From positions 1-37,132 of the forward strand of contig JALEGQ010000073.1 of assembly GCA_022763385.1 (NCBI GenBank): 37,132 bases of DNA. The letters run 5' to 3'. The notes below the pieces were generated by a model that worked only from the letters and a program-made list of their open reading frames with translations, made no database searches and was not told the origin of the DNA. A program made the translations under genes and the position numbers. Positions within the stretch are counted from its first letter, which is position 1. Each line of letters opens with the position of its first letter. This DNA is from a bacterium (lineage in GTDB: Bacteria > Bdellovibrionota_C > UBA2361 > RFPC01). Of this stretch, positions 191 to 1,510 are shown one piece after another.

Positions 191-571
191 GTGTTTTCCC
201 GTTGGGGAACGTTTCGGGCGCTGTGCGCCCTGCACGCAGCGGGGGCGTTGCCGGGGGTTTTCGGTTTTGTCCCTTTGGGGAGCGTTTCAGGCGCTGTGTT
301 TTCCCTTTGGGGAGCGTTTCGGGCCTTTTGGGCCCTGCACGCAGCATCGGCCCTGCACGCAGCGGGGGGTGTTCCGAGGGGTTTTGGTGTTTTCCCTTTG
401 GGGAGCGTTTCGGGCGCTGTGTTTTTCCTTTGGGGAACGTTTCGGGCGCTGTGTTTTCCCTTTGGGGAACGTTTCGGGCCTTTTGGGCCCTGCACGCAGC
501 GGCCCTGCACGCAGCATCGGCCTTGCACGCAGCGGGGGCAGGGTTTTGGGGCAGTTGTTGTTGCTTTTTGT
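191..571 (+). repeat. Palindromic repeat array in the tRNA-Thr/tRNA-Trp spacer
   Basis: This 381-bp spacer is made of imperfect copies of a G+C-rich unit. Each has a core like CCCTTTGGGGAGCGTTTCG (starts near 198, 270, 303, 394, 427 and 457), often followed by a small hairpin and the element CCTGCACGCAGC (near 229, 334, 351, 489, 503, 522). The hairpin exists in two sequence forms that both pair: GGGCGC-TGT-GCGCCC (216-230) and GGGCC-TTTTG-GGCCC (321-335, 476-490). Spacing is irregular, so it is neither a CRISPR nor a simple satellite. The same family reappears after the last tRNA. It opens long frames on both strands, but the reading is proline/arginine-rich repeat sequence that runs across tRNA genes, so I do not call a protein. 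Confidence 0.85.
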
Positions 572-644
572 ACGCCTGTGGCTCAATTGGTAGAGCATCG
601 GATTCCAAATCCGAGGGTTGGGGGTTCAAGTCCCTCCAGGCGTG
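572..644 (+). tRNA. tRNA-Trp (anticodon CCA)
   Basis: ACGCCTG pairs with CAGGCGT to form the acceptor stem. The anticodon stem TCGGA/TCCGA holds loop TTCCAAA, with anticodon CCA at 605-607, and the discriminator is G644, as is usual for tRNA-Trp. A CCA tail is not encoded. In many bacteria tRNA-Trp lies directly before secE; here three other tRNAs come between. Confidence 0.95.
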
Positions 645-733
645 TTTTTCTTCTGTCTCCTCCGTTTTTTTCTTTCGCCGGGTTGATTTTTTCCATTGAT
701 TTCGAGAAGCTCTCGGCTCGCACGAGGGTGTGG

Positions 734-809
734 GCGGGAGTAGCTCAGTTGGTAGAGCATCAGCCTTCCAAGCTGAGGGTCGCGAGTTCGAACCTCGTCT
801 CCCGCTCCA
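734..809 (+). tRNA. tRNA-Gly (anticodon TCC)
   Basis: The acceptor GCGGGAG/CTCCCGC is perfect. The anticodon stem TCAGC/GCTGA encloses CTTCCAA, with anticodon TCC at 767-769. The discriminator is T806, and this is the only tRNA of the five followed by an encoded CCA (807-809). Confidence 0.96.
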
Positions 810-863
810 TTTTTTCCTCGAATCTGTAGATAACTTTTCTGTGGGCTTTTTTTCTTTGGGCCT

Positions 864-893
864 GTGAATCTTGGGTTCGTGAATACTGGGTTC
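864..893 (+). repeat. 15-bp tandem duplication between tRNA-Gly and tRNA-Tyr
   Basis: GTGAATCTTGGGTTC (864-878) is followed directly by GTGAATACTGGGTTC (879-893), 13 of 15 positions identical. It sits in the 104-bp spacer between two tRNAs and is one of several short tandem duplications in the window. Confidence 0.8.
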
Positions 894-913
894 GGGCGAA
901 ATTACAATCATTC

Positions 914-996
914 GGTGGGGTGTCCGAGTGGCTAAAGGAGGCAGACTGTAAATCTGCTCGCGCAAGCGTACGTAGGTTCGAATCCTACTCCCACCA
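914..996 (+). tRNA. tRNA-Tyr (anticodon GTA)
   Basis: A class II tRNA of 83 bases with a long variable arm. GGTGGGG pairs with TCCCACC (one G-T), the anticodon stem GCAGA/TCTGC encloses CTGTAAA with anticodon GTA at 948-950, and the T stem GTAGG/CCTAC holds TTCGAAT. The discriminator is A996. Only seven bases separate it from the next tRNA. Confidence 0.96.
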
Positions 997-1003
997 AATA
1001 TCC

Positions 1004-1076
1004 GCTGGCATAGCTCAATTGGTAGAGCAACTGATTTGTAATCAGTAGGTTGTGGGTTCAAGTCCCTCTGCCAGCT
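1004..1076 (+). tRNA. tRNA-Thr (anticodon TGT)
   Basis: The acceptor GCTGGCA/TGCCAGC is perfect, and the anticodon stem ACTGA/TCAGT holds TTTGTAA with anticodon TGT at 1037-1039. The discriminator is T1076 and no CCA is encoded. The five-gene order Thr(GGT)-Trp-Gly-Tyr-Thr(TGT) mirrors the E. coli thrU-tyrU-glyT-thrT order, with tRNA-Trp added. Confidence 0.96.
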
Positions 1077-1510
1077 GTGTTGTCCCTTTGGGGGGCGTTT
1101 CGGGCGCTTTGCGCCCTGCACGCAGCGGGGTTGTTGCCGAGGGTTTCGGTGTTGTCCCTGTGTTGTCCCTTTGGGGAGCGTTTCGGGCGCTTTGCGCCTT
1201 GCACGCAGCGAGGGGGTGCCGAGGGGTTTTCGGTATTGTCCCTTTGGGGAGCGTTTCGGGCGCTGTGCGCCCTGCACGCAGCGGGGGGTGTTTTGAGGGT
1301 TTTTGGTGTTTTCCCTTTGGGGCCCTGCGCGCAGCTTGGGGCTGGGATTCTTGGGTTTTCTGCTGGGGGGCAGGAGCACTGGGGGTGAAGGGGGCTTGAG
1401 AATGCTTCTTGAAATATCTGGGGTGAGGAAATTGATTCTCTTTTTCAATTTTGTTACCTTTACCAGCTTGAGTTGAGCCGGGGGAGTTGGTTCGGCAGAG
1501 AGGGGGCTCA
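1077..1510 (+). repeat. Second palindromic repeat array and secE leader
   Basis: This is a 434-bp gap without a gene. Its first part (to about 1340) holds four more copies of the tRNA-spacer repeat, with cores near 1083, 1167, 1240 and 1313, the last truncated. The hairpins are GGGCGC-TTT-GCGCCC (1102-1116), a version with one G-T closing pair (1185-1199), and GGGCGC-TGT-GCGCCC (1258-1272). From about 1340 to 1510 the sequence is unique, passing through a T-rich stretch near 1437-1460. TTGATT (1432-1437) with TACCTT (1455-1460) at 17-bp spacing is only a weak promoter candidate for secE. I see no clear intrinsic terminator for the tRNA transcript. Confidence 0.8.

Follow-up and report, generated by a model that had tools for sequence, protein, structure and literature searches.

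Several families of small folded repeats offer points of comparison for the repeats reported here. The small dispersed repeats of cyanobacteria are very small folded sequences thought to move, and we liken our family to them by description only. The rtT repeats of the Escherichia coli tyrT operon lie in tandem directly after a tRNA gene and in the same transcript, as do the two arrays of our window, but they contain copies of the tRNA 3' end, which our units lack, and our units are dispersed genome-wide. The original paper on double-hairpin elements reportedly dealt with Allomyces.

The available parts of two published accounts (PMC2817692, PMC3733652) describe REP and REPIN sequences with their RAYT as short GC-rich palindromes, present in many copies, extragenic and often downstream of coding regions, with complementary stem changes and an arrangement in clusters, all of which recalls our family. 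The differences are that our units carry no GTAG or CGTC tag, comprise two hairpins each, keep a single orientation within arrays, lie at tRNA 3' ends and have no linked RAYT. Double-hairpin elements of fungal mitochondria are GC-rich, mostly intergenic and proposed to be mobile (PMC10085805, part of the text); two tandem hairpins with variable stems are also what we find in our unit, a likeness in form only, whereas the fungal elements are mitochondrial and the available part of that text mentions no tie to gene 3' ends. The mobile GC clusters of yeast mitochondria are short GC-rich palindromes that form tandem arrays and have a TAG motif on their upstream side (available part of PMC4464245); they too resemble our units in form, and differ in being mitochondrial and in that the tRNA sites here are without TAG.

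The window analysed here, a stretch of 37,132 nucleotides from a bacterial genome assigned to Bdellovibrionota_C, carries two arrays of double-hairpin units in a tRNA cluster. We consider it moderately probable that these units represent a lineage-specific family of miniature mobile palindromes that targets gene 3' ends and subsequently expands in tandem, with mobility and the role of the hairpin being what we infer.

Two arrays and the structure of their unit

The features of the two arrays and of their tRNA setting are given below by window position.

118-190, + strand: tRNA-Thr(GGT), host gene of array 1
191-540, + strand: array 1, filling the Thr-Trp spacer directly 3' of tRNA-Thr(GGT)
197-240, 302-345 and 457-500, + strand: full units of array 1 (about 44 nt, TCCC...CGCAGC)
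270-292, 393-415 and 425-447, + strand: truncated heads of array 1
about 349-363, 501-515 and 516-533, + strand: extra tails of array 1
571-645, + strand: tRNA-Trp, downstream of array 1
734-809: tRNA-Gly of the same tRNA cluster
914-996: tRNA-Tyr of the same tRNA cluster
1004-1076, + strand: tRNA-Thr(TGT), host gene of array 2
1077-1340, + strand: array 2, between tRNA-Thr(TGT) and the presumed secE
1083-1126, 1166-1209 and 1239-1282, + strand: full units of array 2
1166-1209, + strand: worked unit, with hairpin 1 TCCC-TTT-GGGG, outer stem GCGT/ACGC, internal loop TTC/TGC and hairpin 2 GGGCGC-TTT-GCGCCT
about 1306-1336, + strand: fused partial copy of array 2

The open reading frame after array 2 is presumed to be secE from its position and the gene order, and a further one is presumed to be nusG. 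In each array, the first hairpin begins 6 nt past the tRNA 3' end, and tandem duplication with truncation is evident, with periods of 32 nt and 73 nt. The preliminary description had counted about ten copies in two spacers of the tRNA cluster. About ten head-bearing copies are indeed there, of which six are full units and the remaining four or so truncated heads or partial copies; array 1 lies between tRNA genes as described, but array 2 occupies the spacer between a tRNA gene and secE and not one between two tRNAs. As a separate observation, an 18-nt unit is repeated about four times at 2036-2110, in the 5' part of the presumed nusG, where it falls in a long extra N-terminal region.

The unit consists of a near-constant hairpin 1, TCCC-(3 nt)-GGG(G/A), followed after one base by a hairpin 2 that is made up of a 4-bp outer stem (NCGT/ACGN), a 3x3 internal loop (most often TTC/TGC) and a variable terminal stem, with AGC after the terminal hairpin. 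Terminal stems include GGGCGC/GCGCCC and GGGCC/GGCCC, the two variants previously noticed and found again in the window copies, as well as GGAGC/GCTCC, GGAGTC/GACTCC and GAACC/GGTTC. The copy said to keep its stem through a G-T pair is the one at 1166-1209 (GGGCGC/GCGCCT). In the minimum-energy fold of this copy, the outer stem and hairpin 2 pair as listed above, and hairpin 1 is shifted by one base.

We observe that the changes in the stems are compensatory. Across 20 copies (alignment A2), 96.3% of 240 cells are paired, compared to 84.2% in shuffles, with 6 pairs changed on both sides (3.2 in shuffles) and 25 double-change cells (5.2 in shuffles). Slid registers pair at 19-55%, and the observed pairing values were reached in 0 of 500 shuffles, a count that is not a probability, since the sequences are related. 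When 45 copies are aligned to covariance model R2 (built from 20 copies, 6 of them from relatives), an alignment that leans to structure, 94.4% of cells are paired and 35 are double-change cells. The outermost pair is seen as G-C, C-G, A-U and U-A; because this pair is absent from the structure of model R1 (built from 20 copies), its covariation is not a product of the search by which the relatives were identified. The covariation test is thus positive in the copies of this genome and in relatives from other genera, in line with the earlier claim that the stem letters change while the pairing stays.

Dispersal in the genome and in relatives

When up to 3 mismatches are allowed, the 23-base head TCCCTTTGGGGAGCGTTTCGGGC has 27 occurrences in this genome (3.07 Mb in 228 contigs, 86.5% complete) versus 0 in a reversed control. 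Model R1 matches 48 places at E <= 0.1 and model R2 matches 50 at E <= 0.05; head search and covariance models together give about 31 further sites outside the window, a count from which a match on contig C127 (E 0.014) is left out. Confinement of the unit to this one locus, which the preliminary description had considered as a way for its view to fail, is therefore not what we find.

In a class-wide search with R2, 11 of 45 genomes have a match at E <= 0.05, and strong matches (E < 1e-10) occur only in this genome and in G004, G005 and G006, which belong to three other genera. With R2, for which these three genomes supplied some of the copies, their best matches range from E 7.7e-18 to 4.7e-11; with R1, to which they contributed none, the range is 2.0e-10 to 1.2e-4. 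Their units adjoin tRNA-Gln (G004), tRNA-His (G005) and tRNA-Met (G006), and one lies in the 16S-23S spacer of G004. Weak matches in G013, G019, G026, G011, G032 and G041 (E 0.001-0.05) were judged by eye and stand outside all counts: in G013, a single repeated sequence has a first hairpin resembling that of the unit, and the remaining matches look fortuitous. In named collections, the relatives of the window's NusG belong to uncultured Deltaproteobacteria- or Bdellovibrionales-like metagenome genomes; at 15 of 80 such loci (L097-L111), sense-strand tRNA spacers were readable in only 5 and look ordinary. A plasmid or phage origin was rejected after blastn searches in which array 1 had no match among plasmids and array 2 none among phages. 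A pattern search with the exact letters of one version returned 0 matches in a collection of genome contigs. The lone exact match in viral contigs has unrelated-looking surroundings that lack the first hairpin, and we attribute it to chance. A literature search with most subscription journals outside its coverage found no description of this repeat family.

The nearest genome compared, G001 of the same genus (NusG 87%), has the same Thr-Trp-Gly-Tyr-Thr-secE order; its spacers, which measure 125, 209, 195 and 148 nt, are free of units, and a genome-wide search of it with the covariance model gave 0 matches. Its spacer after tRNA-Gly (L252), a different spacer of the same tRNA operon, has short tandem repeats of its own around TTTTTTGGCTTTGCCATA. 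In this genome and in G004, units directly adjoin the discriminator base of tRNA-Gln, and at the same place G001, G002 and G003 have an encoded CCA, ordinary sequence and no unit. Most simply, the two tRNA-Gln units represent separate gains at the same base. Simple insertion does not account for the fact that, at tRNA-Gln with a unit, the CCA is missing and not displaced. G006 has one unit after a 24-nt 5' fragment of tRNA-Met and one unit-like head after a 5' fragment of tRNA-Ala, each with an intact copy of the tRNA gene alongside.

Placement after gene 3' ends and class B copies

With respect to placement, we call plain sites those places in this genome where the units have no additional hairpin on their left and the upstream gene can be read. 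At all 13 plain sites, the first base of hairpin 1 lies 4-9 nt past the tRNA 3' end or the stop codon, and at all 13 the orientation is sense, a regularity that the preliminary description had missed. The orientation counts exclude C44, C101:59601, C24, C212 and C73, where the upstream gene is not resolved; the left flank is missing at C108, C138, C144 and C207. The hosts are five tRNAs (Thr(GGT), Thr(TGT), Gln, Cys and Met) and eight protein genes (L20, L34, RRM-S18, LexA, ATP synthase a, ATP synthase epsilon, ribonucleotide reductase and nitroreductase), with the weaker or more degenerate copies being those after the last three. The preliminary description had suggested that the copies could guide tRNA processing; as a general role this is weakened, since protein genes precede 8 of the 13 plain sites. 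In the RRM-S18 host, an RNA-recognition motif (RRM) is joined to ribosomal protein S18 in one reading frame (L047:2536-3138, - strand, contig C150).

Units in other genera start 4 nt past tRNA-Gln (G004) and 3 nt past the CCA of tRNA-His (G005), and in G002 an element whose first hairpin is similar begins 12 nt beyond purH. The copy in the 16S-23S spacer of G004 is an exception to the position rule, lying about 150 nt from the 16S end. By eye, TAG is the stop codon immediately preceding an element in 12 of 14 cases (C86 is not among the 14), versus 42 of 114 stops in a rough ORF count of this genome; because TAG is common here, we do not build on this figure.

A second type of copy, class B, is about 175 bp long; it is bounded by the inverted ends CTAGTG...CACTAG, has a hairpin on its left and encloses a variant unit. 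Like MITEs, class B copies are short and dispersed, have terminal inverted repeats with related arms and contain no evident gene; unlike MITEs, the plain units of the window are without terminal inverted repeats, and no parent transposon was found among the genome's 7 right-terminal-repeat matches, which are all class B, though a parent could be elsewhere or unassembled. The CTAG of the ends is palindromic, and one copy on C101 has TTAG/CTAA, which fits an inverted end rather than a target-site duplication; for plain units, no clean target-site duplication was demonstrable. At seven places (C216 twice, C162, C5, C101, C47 and C86), the left-end TAG is the stop codon of the upstream sense frame, the C47 copy having a different left hairpin, and at C145, C177, C169, C59 and C66 the sense frame ends some 7-45 nt upstream. 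Several of the frames upstream of class B had no match in Pfam. On C101, three plain-type units lie between class B-like ends. Eight contigs (C44, C86, C108, C138, C144, C145, C162 and C207) end within class B copies, indicating that class B limits or breaks the assembly. In G002, the MITE-like elements L221 and L225 have CTAGTG-type ends and CTGTATTNTCCC as first hairpin, are different inside, and probably form a sister family.

Readings of the family and what they mean

As a miniature mobile family, the elements would be non-autonomous and moved by an enzyme, with new copies inserted directly at the 3' ends of tRNA and protein genes in sense orientation. Local tandem duplication and truncation would then build arrays like the two of the window, and some copies may ride inside, or may have given rise to, the MITE-like class B element. 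The hairpin would persist as the substrate on which the mobilising enzyme acts, probably in the form of single-stranded DNA. Neither the three Y1 loci of this genome, which are without units, nor its right-terminal-repeat matches tie an enzyme to the family. For a REP or a MITE, so strictly uniform an orientation is unusual, and it could also reflect selection on RNA.

Such selection leads to the main rival reading, which we hold as tentative, namely a functional RNA element: the double hairpin would be selected just 3' of tRNAs and of highly expressed genes and would there set the RNA 3' end, protect the upstream RNA or bind a protein. The sense orientation and fixed distance at all plain sites, the hosts (mostly tRNAs and genes of a usually highly expressed kind), the conserved internal loop and the covarying stems all agree with this, as do 34 G-U pairs versus 11 A-C mismatches on the sense strand; however, 28 of these 34 G-U pairs represent one position. 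Folding of the sense strand is not unusually stable (mean z -0.54, compared to -1.60 for the antisense strand; 39 copies, dinucleotide shuffles), and folding energy thus does not favour the sense strand, which counts against the RNA reading. Further points against it are that G001 has no unit at the orthologous sites or anywhere in its genome, that many copies are truncated and that only some tRNAs have units. Rfam 15 (8 loci at E <= 1, 11 loci at the gathering score) gave only sub-threshold matches beyond tRNA and rRNA genes, none of which covers the window units. Terminator-like sites are not in excess either: a search for intrinsic terminators, which need a T run, found 4 sites in 1-1520, compared to 5.4 expected from shuffles, and the sequence after full units is mostly G-rich. 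The RNA-element and mobile-palindrome readings are not mutually exclusive.

It is also conceivable, if rather improbable, that the spread or fixation of the element depends on recognition of RNA 3' ends, for instance through an RNA intermediate or an RNA-guided enzyme, with copies being joined in sense directly to mature tRNA ends (in tRNA-Gln ahead of the CCA, with loss of the latter) and to the ends of abundant messages. If true, this would be a prokaryotic mobile element with gene-3'-end targeting that is independent of target sequence.

We doubt strongly that the units are a canonical REP/REPIN family mobilised by a RAYT. They are indeed short, GC-rich, multi-copy palindromes in extragenic positions near gene 3' ends, and a Y1-transposase gene is present on contig C111. 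Despite this, no GT(A/G)G or CGTC tag stands by the stem, the aligned copies showing (C)TGTRTTNTCCC before hairpin 1, and the three Y1_Tnp matches in this genome, at its 86.5% completeness, have no unit within about 1.5 kb on each side. The number of matches, about 50, is also low against the more than 100 per genome that are usual for REPs in the available part of the source. We conclude that the family is not a canonical REP, because the tag is absent and the best transposase candidate, on C111, is flanked on both sides by a different palindrome. The preliminary description had proposed a small mobile palindrome such as a REP-like element: the mobile palindrome is what the data support best, whereas REP identity fails on the tag and on the transposase, the search for a REP-associated transposase having come out negative. 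The C111 gene, which is RAYT-like (L059:1198-1872, - strand), has its own inverted palindrome, TTCGTCCCCGGGATGACTATCCC, on both sides, and this represents a second palindromic family, unrelated to the window unit.

Local slippage, that is, a simple tandem repeat of one spacer with no wider meaning, would fit the duplicated and truncated arrays with their two periods and is a likely mode of array growth, but it is highly implausible, and rejected, as the whole explanation because of the sites elsewhere in the genome and the relatives in three other genera.

Bacterial small palindromic repeats are mostly described as loosely extragenic. The copies of the miniature palindrome family described here obey a rule, lying 4-9 nt past a 3' end, in sense orientation only, with tRNAs and other core genes favoured, and the tRNA-Gln end has apparently been hit twice, in two genera. 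The position rule and the repeated hit at tRNA-Gln make the target choice of a miniature element testable, and the paired stem changes provide a natural series for finding the enzyme. For this lineage, the results mean that some tRNA operon and rRNA spacers are derived from such elements.
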